A DNA stretch of 32,047 nucleotides. It comes from Candidatus Saccharimonadota bacterium. Its GTDB lineage: Bacteria; Patescibacteriota; Saccharimonadia; Saccharimonadales; Saccharimonadaceae. A program made the translations under genes and the position numbers. Of the stretch, positions 1 through 17,960 are shown piece by piece (positions within the stretch are counted from its first letter, which is position 1; each line of letters begins with the position of its first letter). The notes beneath the pieces are model-generated. The model did no database searches. It saw nothing but the letters and a program-made list of their open reading frames with translations, and was not told the origin of the DNA. Where the stretch lies: positions 1 through 32,047 of the forward strand of contig JAGCAJ010000012.1 in assembly GCA_017652765.1 (NCBI GenBank), given 5' to 3'.

Positions 1-194
1 CTGCGTTAGTGTTTCTGGCTGGAGCAAGAATAGAAGAGCATAGGAAAGTAACAAGAAACGCTACGGAAAACATAGCCGTAGCGGTAGAAAACAAATGCCA
101 ACGAGAGTTAGAACGAGAAAGACCAACGAGGCGTGCGCGCCGAGTTAGTTTCTTAGTTCTGTTATACCCCCCCCCGTGTTGACCTGATTGACAT
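1..194 (-). CDS. Putative phase-variable secreted/membrane protein, N-terminal part, currently out of frame
   Basis: Product not recognised; only the N-terminal part lies in the window. The ATG at 192-194 has a good ribosome binding site (AAGGGAAGG, six bases before it) and a promoter upstream at 265-294. The frame reads MSIRSTR, then crosses nine G (minus strand of 167-175). With nine G it stops after 11 residues (GTA TAA). With eight G it stays open to the window edge, giving a very basic N-region (NRTKKLTRRARLVGLSRSN) followed by a hydrophobic core (MFSVAFLVTFLCSSILAPA), which looks like a signal peptide or signal anchor. This is the layout of a slipped-strand contingency gene. A sequencing error in the homopolymer, or a dead gene, would look the same. 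The existence of the open frame is seen; the phase variation is inferred. Confidence 0.5.
167..175. repeat. Nine-base C/G homopolymer tract
   Basis: A run of nine C on the plus strand (G on the minus) lies 17 bases inside the minus-strand reading frame that starts at 194. Changing its length by -1 joins the start to a long open frame. It is by far the longest G/C homopolymer noticed in the window. Confidence 0.9.
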
Positions 195-264
195 TGTTGA
201 CCTTCCCTTTATTTGCGATTTATAGTCTTCTGGCAAAAAGCCAAAATGACCTTTGTATGTATTG

Positions 265-294
265 ATTATAGCACAAGCGAGTTAAAAAAGACAA
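265..294 (-). promoter_or_regulatory. Promoter of the poly-G gene
   Basis: On the minus strand, TTGTCT (289-294) and TATAAT (265-270) are 18 bases apart, with a TGC extension before the -10 box. The predicted transcript starts near 258 and runs leftward into the ATG at 194, leaving a leader of about 64 nt. Confidence 0.75.
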
Positions 295-335: not shown

Positions 336-1187
336 CTACTCCTCGATTCTTTTCTGTGTGCCGGGGAGATAATTCTTGTCTGTAACTACGGGTTTGCCCG
401 TGCTTTCTTCAACGGCTTTTCTGGCAATGCCTGCCACCTTACCGCCACGTCTGGCGACGTCCTGATTTTCGGCAAAAGTTGCTGGTTTTTCTGATTTGGA
501 GATTTCTTTTGCGGTGTTTTCTGCAAGCATATTTAGAATTAGCTCGGAATCCGTCATGTTGTCGCGCAAGCTCTCCTTCTTTAATCCCTTATAATTTTTA
601 TATTCGCGCGTAGTCATTCCGGACCACTCTTTAGAGATAATATCCGTCAGCATAGCAAACTGGTTACCCTTCTTTACCCCGCGCTTATGCCATTCGTCGG
701 TTAGGCCGTTTCTAACCTTAATAGATAGCATTCGCCGATTAATCCATTCTTCGGAATAGCCTTTACGGCGGTAGGATTCTACGGCGCGAGCCACCGCGAG
801 CTCCGGGTCAAATTCCTCGTCAATCCGCTCGCTACCAACTTTTGCTAGCCACTGCTTAAATGGCTCAGCCTTGGGCGATGGAATAGACTGGATGATACGA
901 AGGACGCCTTTAGTGTTGGATGCGTCAGTTTTATACTTTTTACCATCAGATGATTCTAATTTCAGTTGTCGACAAATTGTCGACAACTTAGCTTTTTCTT
1001 CTTCATCCATACGTTTCTTGACTCGATACCAATAATCTCGTGGATTTGGACTATCCGTTAACGCTTGGACAACGTCAACGACAGAAAAATACCACTCCCC
1101 CTCCTCCTCATTCCAGACAGAACGGATTTCACTCCCCTCAAATAATTTTAGGGAATTAGATTCTTTTGGTAGTTTTTCTTTCGTCAT
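336..1187 (-). CDS. BRO-N domain (phage antirepressor/DinD-like) protein
   Basis: A 283-residue protein. The N-terminal 100 residues or so match the BRO-N pattern: a small beta/alpha domain with KLFEGSEIRSVWNEEEGEWY followed by SVVDVVQALTDSPNPRDYW and VKKRM. This domain binds DNA in phage antirepressors and baculovirus BRO proteins. The C-terminal half (FDPELAVARAVESYRRKGY, then an E-W-x-K-R-G region) resembles the extension found in DinD/antirepressor-like chromosomal proteins. ATG is preceded by AAGGAGG. No phage genes are visible around it, so it is either a lone remnant of a mobile element or a domesticated regulator. It has its own terminator. Family assignment is from remembered motifs; the regulatory target is unknown. 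Confidence 0.75.
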   Translation of the reverse strand: MTKEKLPKESNSLKLFEGSEIRSVWNEEEGEWYFSVVDVVQALTDSPNPRDYWYRVKKRMDEEEKAKLSTICRQLKLESSDGKKYKTDASNTKGVLRIIQSIPSPKAEPFKQWLAKVGSERIDEEFDPELAVARAVESYRRKGYSEEWINRRMLSIKVRNGLTDEWHKRGVKKGNQFAMLTDIISKEWSGMTTREYKNYKGLKKESLRDNMTDSELILNMLAENTAKEISKSEKPATFAENQDVARRGGKVAGIARKAVEESTGKPVVTDKNYLPGTQKRIEE

Positions 1188-11102: not shown

Positions 11103-12122
11103 TTAAACGTGGCGAATTTTTTTGCGGATTTTTTCAATAATTTTGGTTTTTTGGTATTTAACAGGATTGATTACTAAATCGTGGGCTGGGAGGTATTTTA
11201 GCTCGTCGCCACCAAAGCCACGCTTAAAGAAAGATACGCCATAAAAACGGTGATCTTTTTCGTCTTCGCCGACGATACCCCAGAGGTTATAACGATAAAT
11301 CTTGCGAGCGCGAGCATCACGCATGGCTTCTACATGGAGAATCGGAGAGCCAGACATTTTAGTACCGAGTTCTGTCGAGACGGCATAGTGATAAGACGCT
11401 TCATTACCATAAAAAATCATAAAATTCTGAGCTAGGATTTCGTCGTTGTATTTAGCGGTATAGAGGACGGCTTCGTTATTCTTGGCAAAGGCAGTAAATT
11501 GTTTAGTAAGATAGTCCTCAGAAAAACTCACAAAATTCTGACGGCGTGCAGTAGAAAGTTGAATCTGATAAAATTCGTGAATGTCCTTAGGATCCTGAGA
11601 CTTCTCAATAGTAAAGCCTTTGTTTCTAGCATTATTAACCGCGTAACGAATACGGCGATGCATGCCTTTAATGATTTCTTCTTCGCTCTTGTGGAGGTCT
11701 AGAACGGCAGCATACTCTACGGAAAGATAAGTTGGGGCGGGTTTCAAACCGTGGGATTTAAAAATCTGATAGGCTTTGTCGGTTCTCTCTAACTGTGGAC
11801 GGACGCGGACAAAAACACAAGAATGAGATTTTCCTTGCTCTTTAATATCTTCAAAAATCTGATCTACTAGTTTTTTATTGTTCCAATCTAGAATTGGGCC
11901 GCCAGCGATAGCTAGGTGACGGCCACGCTTAGCATTCTCTACGACACCAGCATAGGCGCCGATGATTTTACCGTCTTTTTCGGCGATGCGACGGACGATT
12001 TGATTGCCACGGGAAGCATGAAATTCATAAAAATCCCAAGATTGGAGAAAATTTGCTTCTGGATGAGACGTGACGAATTTATCCCACTTTGACCTAGAAT
12101 TAGCATCTTTAATTTCTATCAT
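11103..12122 (-). CDS. FemAB-type peptidoglycan aminoacyl transferase, copy 1
   Basis: A 339-residue protein of the FemABX family (two GNAT-like domains). Characterised members transfer amino acids from aminoacyl-tRNA to lipid II to build the interpeptide bridge. Landmarks: NFLQSWDFYEFHASRG near residue 24, AKRGRHLAIAGGPILDW near 64-80, FVRVRPQLERT near 104-114, the RRIRYAVNNARNKGF helix near 155-170, and YRYNLWGIVGEDEKDH near 285. It overlaps the next gene upstream by one base (TAATG) and is the last gene of the six-gene operon. A second FemAB copy lies directly upstream and clearly shares these motifs, so this is a tandem duplication. The acceptor and amino acid are unknown. Confidence 0.85.
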   Translation of the reverse strand: MIEIKDANSRSKWDKFVTSHPEANFLQSWDFYEFHASRGNQIVRRIAEKDGKIIGAYAGVVENAKRGRHLAIAGGPILDWNNKKLVDQIFEDIKEQGKSHSCVFVRVRPQLERTDKAYQIFKSHGLKPAPTYLSVEYAAVLDLHKSEEEIIKGMHRRIRYAVNNARNKGFTIEKSQDPKDIHEFYQIQLSTARRQNFVSFSEDYLTKQFTAFAKNNEAVLYTAKYNDEILAQNFMIFYGNEASYHYAVSTELGTKMSGSPILHVEAMRDARARKIYRYNLWGIVGEDEKDHRFYGVSFFKRGFGGDELKYLPAHDLVINPVKYQKTKIIEKIRKKIRHV

Positions 12123-13069
12123 TATAAATGTCTCCTATGCTTTCGTAGTGTTTCGATAAGGTAATCTGGGGCGTATTTAAGTTTGGAAATTATAAAATCG
12201 TGCGCCGGGATAAACGCCACTATTTCTCCGCCAAAGCCAGTTTTAAAGGTAGTAACGCCGGCGTAACGGTGGTTGGGCTGGCCCGGTGGAGCGATACCCC
12301 AGAGATTATAATATTTAATACCAAGGTTTTTAAGGTCGCGGATAACTTGCCACTGGAGAGCATAAGCACCGGGGAGTTTACGGTTAAGATCAGTACTGGC
12401 AGCTTCGTAGTATTCTGCTTCGTTGTTGCCTATTAAGATTAAGCCATAGGCAATCGGCTCGCCGTTCGCCGTCTTGGCGACATAAATTCTAGCATTATCA
12501 CCAAAGGCTTCTCTCTCTGCGAGCAAAGTCTTTAGGTTTGGCGGTACAAAATGCTGACGCTCAGCGGTCTTACTCTGGACATGGTGAAACTCCCTAAACA
12601 ATTCTTCGGAGTTGCCGGATTCGACTACGATACCCAGCTTGCCAGCCCGGCGAACTTCGTAGCGAGTCTGACGACGCATGCCAGCTAGGAGCTCTTCTTC
12701 GGATTTTTTGAGGCTTAAAATAACGGTATGCTCGGCGGCGAGGTGCATAGGGGCGACTTTACCACCTAGAGATTTTAACAGAGCACGATTCTCCGCTGTA
12801 TCGAGGAGCTGCGGACGGACGCGGACAAAAGCACACCGGTGTTTCTTGGCAATAGCGGACATTTTGCTAATGGCGGAAGCTAGCGTTTCCCTGTTATCCC
12901 AGTCAAGTACTGGCCCACCAGGGATTTCTAGATAGCGACCACGTTTAGCATTCTTAACAATCATATAGGTCGGAGATTTGTCGTCTAGCTTTTCGACGAT
13001 AACTTTGTGGCCGATAAGTTCGTTGGTATTTTGCCAGGCGGGGGATTGGAGGAAATTAGTCTTTAACAT
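12122..13069 (-). CDS. FemAB-type peptidoglycan aminoacyl transferase, copy 2
   Basis: A 315-residue FemABX-family protein paralogous to the one immediately downstream: shared segments include NAKRGRYLEIPGGPVLDWDN, FVRVRPQLLDT, MRRQTRYEVRRAGKLG and YYNLWGIAPPGQPNHRY. Its start overlaps the stop of the DegT gene by seven bases and its stop overlaps the next start by one. Two successive FemAB enzymes would fit a bridge of two or more amino acids, as in FemA/FemB of Staphylococcus, but this is inference. It begins LKTNFLQSPAWQNTNELIGH, a shorter N-terminus than copy 1. Confidence 0.85.
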   Translation of the reverse strand: MLKTNFLQSPAWQNTNELIGHKVIVEKLDDKSPTYMIVKNAKRGRYLEIPGGPVLDWDNRETLASAISKMSAIAKKHRCAFVRVRPQLLDTAENRALLKSLGGKVAPMHLAAEHTVILSLKKSEEELLAGMRRQTRYEVRRAGKLGIVVESGNSEELFREFHHVQSKTAERQHFVPPNLKTLLAEREAFGDNARIYVAKTANGEPIAYGLILIGNNEAEYYEAASTDLNRKLPGAYALQWQVIRDLKNLGIKYYNLWGIAPPGQPNHRYAGVTTFKTGFGGEIVAFIPAHDFIISKLKYAPDYLIETLRKHRRHL

Positions 13070-14172
13070 TCGTCCTCCTCAATGATTTTTATGGCACGGT
13101 TTAGCTTTTCTGGCGGGTAATAAGTCGGAAGGTTAATAATATGCTTTGCGACTTCGGTGGCGACCGGACAAGCAGATTCGTCAAAATGTATCCTATTGTA
13201 ATAGCGGACCGGAGAAATCGGTACATCATACCAGACTTCGCGGAAATTATAGCCAGCGCGCTCTAGCCCGCTTAGCACTTTGGCGCGGTCATTTACAAAA
13301 CGGTGGGTACGGATAGGCAAGGCGCCTGAGCGCTCAATATTTTTTAGTTGGCGCAAAATTAGTTTAGACTGCCAATGCGCAGGGCGACGCGTAAGACTTA
13401 GCTTGGCGTCGACGGCACGTTCAATAAAGTGCATCCGGATAAGCGGACCATACCAATATTTTTGTAAGCGAATCCTAGAAAATCCGCGACCGATGCTAGC
13501 AAGAAGCGGATAGAACCTAGCGCGGAGAGTGTCGGATAGTTTTGGACGTTTGGCCGGGAAACGGAGTAGTCTTTCTGGGGCGTCATTTATAATGAGCGCG
13601 CCACCAGTAATCGCATCTAGTGATTTACCCTTGCCAAAAGAAAGTGCAGAAGCAGAGCCAACAGAGCCAACTCTGCGACCGTCTGGATAAGTAAACCCAG
13701 CACAATGGGCAAGATCTTCAATAATAACGAGGTGATGCTCGCGTGCGAATTTTTCAATAGACTTAATATCTACACAGATGCCTAGGGTATTTTGAATAAT
13801 TAGAGCCTTGGCCTTAGGATGTTTTTCTAGGGTCTTTTTTAGGGTCTTTTCGTCGAAATTAAGCGTGCGTTTGTTAATGTCTGCGTAGACTGGTTTCATG
13901 CCGGCTTTTTCTACGGCTTGGAGTACGGCATAACAGGTAAATCCATTAATAATTACCTCGGAACCGGACGAAATAAAGCATTTCAGCGCTCCAGCTAGCG
14001 CGGAGCGACCGTTATTCATCAGGTAAACACGTTCTGGTTTAGTGCCTAGAGAATCTGCCAGATGTTGCCTTAACATATTAGACCATTTCTTTGACCCGAA
14101 GGCAAATGTATGGCGTACTATATCTTTGGCACGGTAGTTTGAGGCTTGGCCGAGGAATAATCTAGAGGACAC
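13063..14172 (-). CDS. DegT/DnrJ-type PLP aminotransferase, copy 1
   Basis: A 369-residue fold-type I PLP enzyme of the DegT/DnrJ/EryC1 family, which usually aminates keto-sugars or related compounds. The cofactor-binding Asp is in IEDLAHCAG (D153) and the Schiff-base Lys in SFGKGKSLDAITGG (K183); the NNGRSALAG segment near 53-61 is also typical. The C-terminal part has WYDVPISPVRYYNRIHFDES and VATEVAKHIINLPTYY. It overlaps both neighbours (11 bases upstream, 7 downstream). It is a paralogue of the larger copy upstream, close to it over the catalytic half. The substrate is unknown; placement between a Mur ligase and FemAB genes suggests a cell-wall precursor. Confidence 0.85.
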   Translation of the reverse strand: MSSRLFLGQASNYRAKDIVRHTFAFGSKKWSNMLRQHLADSLGTKPERVYLMNNGRSALAGALKCFISSGSEVIINGFTCYAVLQAVEKAGMKPVYADINKRTLNFDEKTLKKTLEKHPKAKALIIQNTLGICVDIKSIEKFAREHHLVIIEDLAHCAGFTYPDGRRVGSVGSASALSFGKGKSLDAITGGALIINDAPERLLRFPAKRPKLSDTLRARFYPLLASIGRGFSRIRLQKYWYGPLIRMHFIERAVDAKLSLTRRPAHWQSKLILRQLKNIERSGALPIRTHRFVNDRAKVLSGLERAGYNFREVWYDVPISPVRYYNRIHFDESACPVATEVAKHIINLPTYYPPEKLNRAIKIIEEDEC

Positions 14173-15994
14173 TTGGCTTCTCCTTCTTGCCCGCCTCTAA
14201 TTCTTGTTTAAGTTTCTCGCGATCGGATAGCTTACGCGGAGCAACACGCATGCCGGATGGGCTTGGGCGGTTGATAACCGTGATAGCTGGCTCGGCCTTA
14301 GGAACAAAGGCCTTACGGTAAGTTGGCTCGGATTTTCTGGCCGGCTCTGGCTTCTTGGTTGGTTCTGGTTTTTTGGCCGGAGTTCTGGTCGGCTCTGGAG
14401 CTTTAACTGGGGCGGGCTTTTCTTTTGGCTCTTCTGGTTCTTCGGCAACAAAGATGTCGGCGTCTTCGTCAATTTCGGTTTCTTCCTGTTCGCGGTCGTC
14501 CGTAGCACTCAAGATGTCGGAGGTATCTTCTAGCGAAGAAAGATTAGCTTTTTCCCTCTTTCTTTTTAGCTTTTCTTTCTTTTCCTTCTCAATACGTTTT
14601 TTCTTCTCGTCTGCAGTTTCGACAACTTTTTTGGAGGCGTTTTCTAGGATAGTGGCTAGTTTTTTCTTGGCTCTATCTTTGGCTTTTTCTTTTTCTTCGG
14701 TTTCAATTTCTTCGTCTGGAGCGCCATCAGCCTTTAGTTTCTTGGCTTTGTCTTTTTTGGCTTTTTTGTCAGCTTTTAGTTGTTTGGTGCGCTCGGCTTT
14801 TTCAGCTTTAATCTTGGCACGCTTTTCGTCTTCGGTCATTTCATCTTCTGGGACTTCGGCGTTTTCGGCATCTTTGTCTGGGTTTTCTACTAGATGAGCC
14901 ATGATTAGACGCTTAGCAGAGCGGAGCTCGGCTGGGTCGTACCAAGTAGGGAGATTAACAATCTGTTCGGCAATTTCTGTGGCAACTGGACATTGGTCTG
15001 GATGGAAGTCCGCCTTCCTAAAATAGCGCTTTGGGGCGACAGGCATATCGTACCAGATGTCGCTAAAATAGTAGCCTTTTCTTTCTAGGCCAGCTAGAAC
15101 TTCGTCGCGATCACTAACTAGATAAAAATCGCGCAAAGGTTTACGCCCGCGGTGAGGCATGGCGCGAAGCTGGCGCAAGGCCATTTTGCATTGCCAGAAA
15201 GATAATCTAGTCTTGGGATCTACGGCGCCGTCGGCGGAACGTTTGATTTGTTTAGTCTTCAAAAGAAAGGCAGTAAAAGCTTTGCCAACCTTGGGATGGA
15301 CATAATAGAGACGACGGATAATCAAGGAGAATAGCGGATAAAACCTAGCACGGAAATTCTCGGAATGTTTTGGGGCGACGGTAGGTTGTTTGACTGGCGG
15401 ATCCAGAGGGTTAGTAAAGACCACGGCGCCGCCTGTAACAGCGTCAATGGACTTACCCTTACCAAAAGATAGTGCCGCTACACGTCCAACCGTACCAACT
15501 TCTCTACCGTCTGGGTATTTAACGCCGGCACAGTGAGCAAGATCCTCGATAATTGCGAGCTTGTTTAGTTTGGCGACGGTTTCTATCTCTTCAATGTTGA
15601 CTGGAATGCCTAAGTTGTTTTGGATAATGATAGCCTTGACATTAGTCTCGCCTTCTAGGGCCTTTTTTAGCTCTTTGGCGCCATAGTGCAAGGTGTCTTT
15701 ATTGACGTCGGCAAAAATCGGAACACAGCCAGCGGATTTAACGGCCTGGATGACAGCATAACAGGTAAGGCTAGTTACGACGATTTTGCTTCCACGAGGA
15801 GCGACGCCACGGATAGCAACGTTAAGTGCGGTGCGGCCATTACTGTAAACTGCTACATGGTCAAAGGTAGCGCCATAATGTGCAGCTAGGAAGGCGCGAA
15901 GCTCTGGGAGCTGGTATTCGTCACCAAAAGCAAAAGTATGGCGCAAGATATCGCTCAGTGAATACTGAGAAGACAGGCCTAGGAAATATTTCAT
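14162..15994 (-). CDS. DegT/DnrJ-type aminotransferase with long charged tail, copy 2
   Basis: Residues 1-367 are a complete DegT-type PLP enzyme (IEDLAHCAG with D151, SFGKGKSIDAVTGG with K181, WYDMPVAPKRYF near 315-326). Residues 368-610 are an added tail: first a Lys/Glu/Ala-rich stretch likely to form a coiled coil or single alpha helix, then an acidic segment (EEETEIDEDADIFVAEEPEE pattern), then Pro-Lys-Glu repeats (KKPEPTKKPEPARKSEP) and a basic end. Typical family members are about 370-400 residues, so the tail is unusual. It overlaps the hydrolase upstream (ATGA) and the second aminotransferase downstream by 11 bases. The tail may tether the enzyme to partners or to the envelope; that is inference. 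Confidence 0.82.
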   Translation of the reverse strand: MKYFLGLSSQYSLSDILRHTFAFGDEYQLPELRAFLAAHYGATFDHVAVYSNGRTALNVAIRGVAPRGSKIVVTSLTCYAVIQAVKSAGCVPIFADVNKDTLHYGAKELKKALEGETNVKAIIIQNNLGIPVNIEEIETVAKLNKLAIIEDLAHCAGVKYPDGREVGTVGRVAALSFGKGKSIDAVTGGAVVFTNPLDPPVKQPTVAPKHSENFRARFYPLFSLIIRRLYYVHPKVGKAFTAFLLKTKQIKRSADGAVDPKTRLSFWQCKMALRQLRAMPHRGRKPLRDFYLVSDRDEVLAGLERKGYYFSDIWYDMPVAPKRYFRKADFHPDQCPVATEIAEQIVNLPTWYDPAELRSAKRLIMAHLVENPDKDAENAEVPEDEMTEDEKRAKIKAEKAERTKQLKADKKAKKDKAKKLKADGAPDEEIETEEKEKAKDRAKKKLATILENASKKVVETADEKKKRIEKEKKEKLKRKREKANLSSLEDTSDILSATDDREQEETEIDEDADIFVAEEPEEPKEKPAPVKAPEPTRTPAKKPEPTKKPEPARKSEPTYRKAFVPKAEPAITVINRPSPSGMRVAPRKLSDREKLKQELEAGKKEKPSVL

Positions 15995-16668
15995 GCGTAT
16001 TTCTCCATAGTGGCATAAATTGCCTTGGCTAGGCCCTCTGGGTCGCAGATATATGGAGCATGAGTCCAGTCTTCAAAATACTTAATTTCGCTGTTTTTGA
16101 GTCGGCGGTGCATAGTGGCGGCTTGGCGCGGAGGAGTAACGTTGTCCATCTTGCCCCATAGAATCGTGGCTGGGGTAGAAACCGCTGTCATGTCGAGTTT
16201 TTTGTCACTTTCTAGCATGTTGGCTAGAGTTTTTTTCATGTTTTCTGGAGCGCGGTCATAATCCGAGGCGCCTAGGACTTTGTGATAGACTTTTCTGAGG
16301 GGCTTAATTCCCTTTAGTGGAGCCATAAGTTTAGAGACTTTGCGTGCGATGTCGCGTTTTTTAGACTCTTCATAAACACCAGCAGAATCTAGCAAAATGA
16401 CGTGTTTTAGTTTTTCTGGTTTTTTAGAAAGTAGATTTAAGAGGATACGTCCGCCGTTACTATGACCCAGGGCAACTGCGCCGTCTGGGATGTTTTCGTC
16501 GGCCCACTTGACATAGTCGGAAATTTTCCAGACTTTGTTTGAGGGGCTAGTTAGACCAGGAACATTTAGCATCTTAATTTCGATGCCATGTTGCTTTAAT
16601 AAATCAATTGTGGTTTTCCAGGGTTCGACCGTATATGTCCACCCGTGAATTACATATAGGGTTTTCAT
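15991..16668 (-). CDS. Alpha/beta hydrolase
   Basis: A 225-residue serine hydrolase. The nucleophile elbow is GHSNGG (S70), the acid is in WGKMDNVTPP (D175) and the base in EDWTHAPY (H203); the oxyanion region HGW is at residues 8-10. There is no signal peptide, so it acts in the cytoplasm. Its start overlaps the stop of the Mur ligase (TAATG) and its stop overlaps the next start (ATGA), which implies translational coupling. The substrate is not evident; an ester or thioester intermediate of the same pathway, or editing of a misacylated product, would fit the context. Confidence 0.85.
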   Translation of the reverse strand: MKTLYVIHGWTYTVEPWKTTIDLLKQHGIEIKMLNVPGLTSPSNKVWKISDYVKWADENIPDGAVALGHSNGGRILLNLLSKKPEKLKHVILLDSAGVYEESKKRDIARKVSKLMAPLKGIKPLRKVYHKVLGASDYDRAPENMKKTLANMLESDKKLDMTAVSTPATILWGKMDNVTPPRQAATMHRRLKNSEIKYFEDWTHAPYICDPEGLAKAIYATMEKYA

Positions 16669-17960
16669 TAATATAATCCTCTCTTTTCGCGACGTTTAAC
16701 ATAAATCGGATCACGGCGTGGCAATTTAGACGCGTCTTCTGGGTTTTTTAGTAGTTTTTCTACGAGCCACTCTAGATATTGGCTACCTTTAAATACAAGG
16801 ACCTCTTTTCCGGTAGTGTTTTCTTCTATAAATTTACGGGCGCCTTTGACATCAGAAAAAACCTCGGTTTTAATTTTTCTCTTTTCTAGTTCTGGATAGG
16901 CATATTTCTTGAGGCGACGGCCGACTAGGATAACTTGTTCTGGGTGGGCATTCTCGATAGCGTCGGCCAGTTTTCTGTGCTCTTCGCCCTCAATCTTGCC
17001 CTGCTCTATCATGTCACCAAGGACAATCCAGAGGTGGCGCTCCTTCATGTTGGCGACCATCTCTAGGACGGAATTAATACTAATAAGGTGAGCATTATAG
17101 CTACTATCAATCAATGTGAGGCCGTTTTTGCCTGGGAAATAGGAGCTCCGGCCCGGAGGAAGTACCATATTAGAGAAGTCAGTCTTTGGCTTTAATCTTA
17201 GGTATTTACATAATTTTTGTAGCATATCGAGCTGAATGGCGAGGTCTCTAGGCTGTGGAGCAGAAAAATGAAAGACATTATCCTCGAACACAAAATCCGT
17301 AGATTTTGGCGAAATAACATAACCCTTCAAATTGGACTTAAAACATTCTACGACGTCCGCCTTAATGTGGTGGTGCTCCTTAATTTTTTGAAGAGCCTTC
17401 TTCATTAAGTAGATGTCGCCATCAATATAAATCTTTTTCTGGGTATATTGTGGGAGCATAGCAAATTCATGCGTAATGGCACGGTCTAAGTCCTCAAACT
17501 CGCCACTATCTACCTGGTGCTCGAACTGAATAGCATGAGAACGGCCCAGCGCAATCCAAAGCGTAACTTCTGGGCGAAGCCATTTAGCGAGGAATTCTGT
17601 CTCGTGTGGGCGCTCGCCGTCAATTTCTACAACATAAAACTCATCAGTATAGTGGAAGAAAAGCGAGCGAATAGGCACGGCGACAAAGAGATAAAGCCAG
17701 CGGAGCTTAGTGCCGACTACGCCTTTGTGGATGCCAACAAGGTCAAAAGCAATACCAAAAGCGGAGTTAGCGTTATGAGAATAGTGGGCCCGGTCGCCTA
17801 ACTGACATTCCAAAATATGAAGCATTGTAGTCTTGCCAACGGAGCCAGTAATCGCGATTACGCGAGGGTGCCATTTTTTGAAAGCGTGATTTGCAAAGAA
17901 TCGAAAATAACCAGCCACCACAAAGTAAAAACGTTTCTTAAAACGCGCCGTAAAACTCAT
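16668..17960 (-). CDS. MurF-like Mur ligase lacking the N-terminal substrate domain
   Basis: A 430-residue ATP-dependent Mur ligase. The P-loop ITGSVGKTT is at residues 37-45, instead of around 110 as in MurF, so the usual N-terminal UDP-substrate domain is missing. In its place is a basic, aromatic, amphipathic stretch (KKRFYFVVAGYFRFFANHAF) that could lie on the membrane. MurF-like features follow: VVEIDGERPHETEFLAKWL, LRPEVTLWIALGRSHAIQFE, PPGRSSYF, LIDSSYNAHLISINSVLEM and WIVLGDMIEQGKIEGEEHRK. It is the first gene of the six-gene operon. It may be the MurF of this organism or ligate another carboxylate to an amine, as CapB-type ligases do. Confidence 0.82.
   Translation of the reverse strand: MSFTARFKKRFYFVVAGYFRFFANHAFKKWHPRVIAITGSVGKTTMLHILECQLGDRAHYSHNANSAFGIAFDLVGIHKGVVGTKLRWLYLFVAVPIRSLFFHYTDEFYVVEIDGERPHETEFLAKWLRPEVTLWIALGRSHAIQFEHQVDSGEFEDLDRAITHEFAMLPQYTQKKIYIDGDIYLMKKALQKIKEHHHIKADVVECFKSNLKGYVISPKSTDFVFEDNVFHFSAPQPRDLAIQLDMLQKLCKYLRLKPKTDFSNMVLPPGRSSYFPGKNGLTLIDSSYNAHLISINSVLEMVANMKERHLWIVLGDMIEQGKIEGEEHRKLADAIENAHPEQVILVGRRLKKYAYPELEKRKIKTEVFSDVKGARKFIEENTTGKEVLVFKGSQYLEWLVEKLLKNPEDASKLPRRDPIYVKRREKRGLY

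Follow-up and report, generated by a model that had tools for sequence, protein, structure and literature searches.

A poly-G tract near the start codon of an exported FISUMP-family gene is a probable phase-variation switch in a Saccharibacteria genus

In a gut Saccharibacterium we find a run of nine G in a gene for an exported FISUMP-family protein, beginning 19 nt past the A of its ATG, and consider it very likely, judging from sequence, that this tract acts as a translational phase-variation (contingency) switch whose assembled copy is OFF. In the proposed mechanism, polymerase slippage on the G run would change the tract length: 8 or 11 G would join the ATG to the reading frame of a FISUMP-family surface protein, secreted or membrane-bound, and with 9 or 10 G translation would end within 10–16 codons. 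The mechanism itself is already known from Neisseria and Campylobacter, where poly-G/poly-C translational phase variation acts on surface genes such as Neisseria hmbR and lgtG and the Campylobacter contingency genes. For phase variation in Saccharibacteria, a literature search that covered few subscription papers returned no report.

Results

Tract length sets the reading frame

The window, i.e., the whole stretch of DNA analysed here, is the entire contig C9 of genome G000 (32,047 nt). The switched gene is truncated by the contig end, beyond which a further stop may lie, and because the window is the whole contig, leftward extension of the gene is impossible. Its features are as follows, all on the minus strand.

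1–194, minus: 5′ end of an exported FISUMP-family gene in the 8- or 11-G frame, from the match to the protein encoded on contig C19
23–79, minus: hydrophobic signal-peptide core, TAMFSVAFLVTFLCSSILA, Kyte-Doolittle mean 2.04 over 19 aa
162–164, minus: TAA closing the 9-G frame (GTA TAA), from translation
167–175, minus: G9 tract (C9 on the plus strand), read directly
192–194, minus: ATG of the switched gene, in a block from the −10 to the tract common to the paralogous C19 copy
201–210, minus: Shine-Dalgarno-like AAAGGGAAGG, identical in the C19 copy
265–294, minus: sigma-70-type promoter, TTGTCT-18 nt-TATAAT, 10/12 in a consensus scan
306–336, minus: hairpin and T-run, the likely terminator of the upstream Bro-N gene, from a self-complementary match

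The initial annotation had placed a promoter, a ribosome-binding site and an ATG (194) ahead of nine G, and each is confirmed directly in the sequence; a TG also precedes the −10 of the promoter at 294–265. The hairpin likely sets the Bro-N gene apart from the switched gene. Translation of tract lengths from 6 to 13 G shows that 8 and 11 alone keep the frame open to the window edge, in agreement with the earlier claim that nine G close the frame and eight open it. The assembled 9 G gives MSIRSTRGGV*, with a stop after 10 codons, while 7 or 10 G lead to a stop after 15–16 codons, 6 and 12 to one after 9–11, and 13 is closed. The basic stretch and signal-peptide-like segment described for the 8-G frame likewise hold up: the n-region ahead of the hydrophobic core carries a net charge of about +10, in a long-signal-peptide layout that is the same in paralogs. 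At nine residues the tract reaches the length used as hypermutable, the published cut-off being a poly-G/C of 9 or more (PMC5953494).

From composition, ≈0.3–2 tracts of at least 9 G are expected by chance in a 748-kb genome of 46% GC, so that the three present in G000 are not decisive as a count, and we rejected the bare count as evidence; placement is the argument, and each of the three falls within either a promoter spacer or a start region. In a 68-kb sample picked so as to include the tracts of 9, 11 and 15, the run-length spectrum falls to 2 runs of length 6 and then holds only those of 9, 11 and 15. The longest G runs in 19 neighbouring genes are 3–5 per gene, with a maximum of 5, and GGG is otherwise avoided, serving as 30 of 544 Gly codons (5.5%) in the window genes.

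A second copy of the 5′ region

G000 holds a second copy of the 5′ region at C19:4813–4939. The match begins at the −10, ends shortly after the tract and covers 127 bp at 93% identity, with the same −10 and the same 36 nt from CTCGCTTGTGC onwards; a DNA search of relatives with this 5′ block matched only the two G000 copies. Past the C19 tract we find an intact ORF of ≈640 codons, whose product has a matching signal peptide and ends in a PF09603 (Fib_succ_major) domain (2.5e-11), and C9:2–154 aligns with this surface protein at 57% identity over 51 N-terminal aa (E 6.4e-10). The C19 tract, GGGGAGGGG, also has nine bases and is out of frame by one like that of C9, and both G000 copies are thus assembled OFF; interrupted by an A, it should slip little, though the ORF behind it runs unbroken for 640 codons. 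The C19 gene (L005:4800–6963) has its own promoter and is flanked by the sortase gene and infA within the ribosomal operon. No orthologue is present at this junction in G019, G033, G021 or G032, the closest relatives with a readable junction (that of G030 is cut by its contig end); there the two genes are adjacent, and the C19 gene is therefore a recent insertion.

The FISUMP (PF09603) family is multicopy in G000, where the other copies have an ordinary in-frame start and no tract; it is present in 35 of the 36 genus genomes searched and absent from every sampled genome outside the genus. No contig end matched the window gene when we attempted to extend it leftward, and FISUMP fragments at the ends of C2 and C10 were rejected as the missing part, as they join each other.

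With two OFF copies and an interrupted tract in C19, the main rival explanation is a pseudogene, in which one frameshift in the common ancestor of the C9 and C19 genes abolished expression and left the tract as a relic. The +1 frame error common to the two genes is consistent with this, as is the A within the C19 tract, and the recently inserted C19 gene could be dying. Decay is, however, difficult to reconcile with ORFs that stay open past the tract, with a −10, Shine-Dalgarno sequence and start conserved to the base between the copies, and with in-frame tracts of G9–G13 at the same kind of place in relatives, and we regard it as unlikely.

The same pair of sequences could also be read as programmed +1 ribosomal frameshifting at CGG GGG GGG GTA TAA, with the tract fixed at 9. 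The 10-codon frame and its stop are common to C9 and C19, the sole tract difference, a G-to-A change, is silent in this frame, and frameshifting would explain why the C19 ORF frame has no other canonical start. On the other hand, the slip codon would face the sense codon GTA rather than a stop, some relatives' tracts are already in frame, and the one-G differences between copies in the same genome would be intolerable under constitutive frameshifting, which makes this explanation quite improbable.

Coding tracts occur in both phases in relatives

The check for other poly-G genes that accompanied the initial annotation was run across the genus, and tracts at the starts or signal peptides of exported proteins do recur. 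The survey covers 60 genomes and 140 tracts of at least 9 G, in sets of 36 genomes (90 distinct tracts, with a few at contig ends left out) and 24 genomes (50 tracts). Where a tract falls in the start region or signal peptide of an exported protein, about 6 are in frame and 9 out of frame, in a list drawn from draft MAGs by scripted candidate selection followed by inspection.

In frame, in other species of the genus: L110 (G10), L112 (G9), L115 (G9), L146 (G9), L147 (G13), L329 (G9)
Out of frame: the window, L104, L106, L107, L319, L324, L341, L349, L404

L146 and L147 encode FISUMP proteins. The out-of-frame copies are mostly one G too long, an excess due in part to the screen's demand for at least 9 G. 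Ordinary coding constraint would hold all coding tracts in frame. The strongest ON/OFF pair is in G032, where the coding sequences of two copies agree from the start codon as far as the edge of contig C6 but the DNA upstream differs, and one has G9 and is ON (open, MSKNSYGGGYLLKRF...) whereas the other has G10 and is OFF (MSKNSYGGGVLIKEV, stop). In G445, too, a G9 and a G10 copy that do not differ past the tract form an ON/OFF pair. Tract length and phase thus vary at homologous or analogous loci of relatives, a strict orthologue of the window gene not being among them.

The Bro-N domain gene (PF02498) at window 336–1187 lies between leuS and the switched gene and is syntenic, among the relatives checked, only in G021. 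At this G021 locus near leuS, sought as the orthologous locus, neither a surface gene nor a tract follows.

A second class of tracts lies in promoter spacers

We assigned a tract to a promoter class when, with the tract taken as spacer, the flanking elements agreed with a sigma-70 promoter at 9 or more of 12 bases, using the complementary strand as control. By this measure 42 of the 140 tracts lie between a −35 and a −10, compared with 1/140 in the control. The 36-genome set gives 32/90, 29 of them abutting the −10, vs 1/90 (Fisher p 3e-10), and the 24-genome set 10/50 vs 0/50 (p 0.001). Signal-peptide or membrane-like N-termini are found in 17/30 ORFs behind promoter-class tracts vs 2/21 window genes (p 0.0009). 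Length varies here as well: three species hold orthologous promoters with tracts of G11, G11 and G9, and G028 has two near-identical promoters with G15 and G10. Poly-G spacer promoters are rare in the sampled phylum but not unique to the genus, a notion we rejected, as 7 of 380 phylum genomes have them (G000 included); they are also found in many gut Bacilli, Clostridia, Treponema and Helicobacter.

Two tracts of G000 belong to this class. At C7:50248–50258 (L087), TTGACA-N9-G11-TATTAT, with a spacer of 20, precedes a gene for a secreted protein that is conserved, together with its tract, in G030 and G019; at C21:34054–34068 (L088), TTGACT-C-G15-TAAAAT has a spacer of 16, and the contig ends 68 bases past the tract. 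The window tract fails the same test. In principle the G9 could serve as spacer to an internal promoter whose −10 is TATAAC, like the promoter class of the genus, and TATAAC does abut the tract in the manner of the −10 elements at promoter-class loci. However, no TTGACA-like −35 is found at 15–20 nt on the minus strand and the promoter scan does not call the locus, on which grounds we rejected the assignment; moreover, a normal promoter lies upstream, and a start at TATAAC would remove the start codon from the transcript. This reading is scarcely credible.

The recurrence of the two placements also bears on whether the G9 is an assembly or sequencing artefact, with a true tract of 8 G miscalled near the contig end or confused with the C19 copy. 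Homopolymers are error-prone, the repeat common to C9 and C19 is close to a read length, and the contig ends L411 (G006:C6) and L413 (G024:C6), with multiple long poly-G runs typical of sequencing artefacts, are clearly such artefacts and a caution for automated tract counts. Nonetheless, 166 nt of homologous coding sequence continue beyond the window tract, an 8-G coding tract of this type would remain even if one base had been miscalled, and the two-class placement recurs in many assemblies, where miscalls could touch the exact length of a tract but not the pattern. We thus judge an artefact very improbable.

MutS was not found in the genus

A search for MutS (PF00488), the repair protein that ordinarily stabilises runs of this kind, found it in 0 of 36 genus genomes, G000 included, and the same search was positive in 11 of 14 control genomes; judged by MutS, the genus would be a mismatch-repair-deficient lineage. 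Mononucleotide phase variation in N. meningitidis rises 100- to 1000-fold on loss of mismatch repair (PMC3639595). From these two observations we infer that replication slippage would alter the tract and switch the gene, presumably at useful rates in the source strain. Overall, the reading of the tract as a contingency switch, as first proposed in the initial annotation, is supported by a real exported-family ORF, by the presence of both phases in relatives, by one-G differences between copies and by the failure to find MutS. Two features went unmentioned in that annotation, the promoter-spacer tracts of the genus and the second copy of the 5′ region in G000.

Discussion

The switched gene resembles those of Neisseria and Campylobacter in having at least 9 G in the 5′ coding part, ON and OFF states set by frame, surface-exposed products and membership in multi-copy families. 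It differs in that the Saccharibacteria tract falls in the basic n-region or at the end of a long FISUMP signal peptide, in a genus where MutS was not found, and in that switching is deduced from sequence. The promoter class finds its counterpart in Neisseria porA, which undergoes phase variation through a poly-G promoter spacer (PMC3639595): in C7, C21 and relatives the poly-G likewise lies between −35 and −10, with the number of G setting spacer length, but the C7 and C21 genes are unrelated to porA and their −35 is near-consensus, while the window tract falls outside the porA type. In another Patescibacterium, a hypervariable repeat gene of Gracilibacterium also varies in repeat length, a change attributed to recombination or slipped-strand mispairing (PMC6851277); unlike the homopolymer ON/OFF switch of the window, that gene has 9-mer coding repeats that alter the protein.

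The signal peptide and the family suggest a cell-surface role for the switched protein, and our guess is that it takes part in contact with, or binding to, the bacterial host. More broadly, we lean slightly towards the proposal that this MutS-less Saccharibacteria genus has a large, largely undescribed phasome, in which promoter-spacer and signal-peptide poly-G tracts would randomise the surface proteins of each cell, and a population would thereby hedge its encounters with bacterial hosts, with the phages of those hosts or with the animal. This touches the open question of how ultrasmall epibionts, with their reduced genomes, adjust to hosts that vary; if true, a MutS-less, phase-variable surface repertoire would provide cell-to-cell diversity at little genomic cost.

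Several further observations were made along the way. Poly-G-spacer promoters occur on at least two contigs each in several uncultured gut Bacilli MAGs (L191–L270; Lapin-012__bin22, Lapin-001__bin81, Lapin-017__bin4), which suggests that these hold further large phasomes. The 5′ UTRs of the C9 and C19 copies (window 195–283; L005:4813–4905) consist of perfectly conserved blocks around a diverged, hairpin-like GGC...GCC middle, and may be a regulatory element common to both. Finally, two FemAB-like ligases, two DegT/DnrJ-type aminotransferases, a hydrolase and a Mur-ligase-domain protein are clustered at window 11103–17960, likely for the synthesis of cell-wall peptide or surface sugar.
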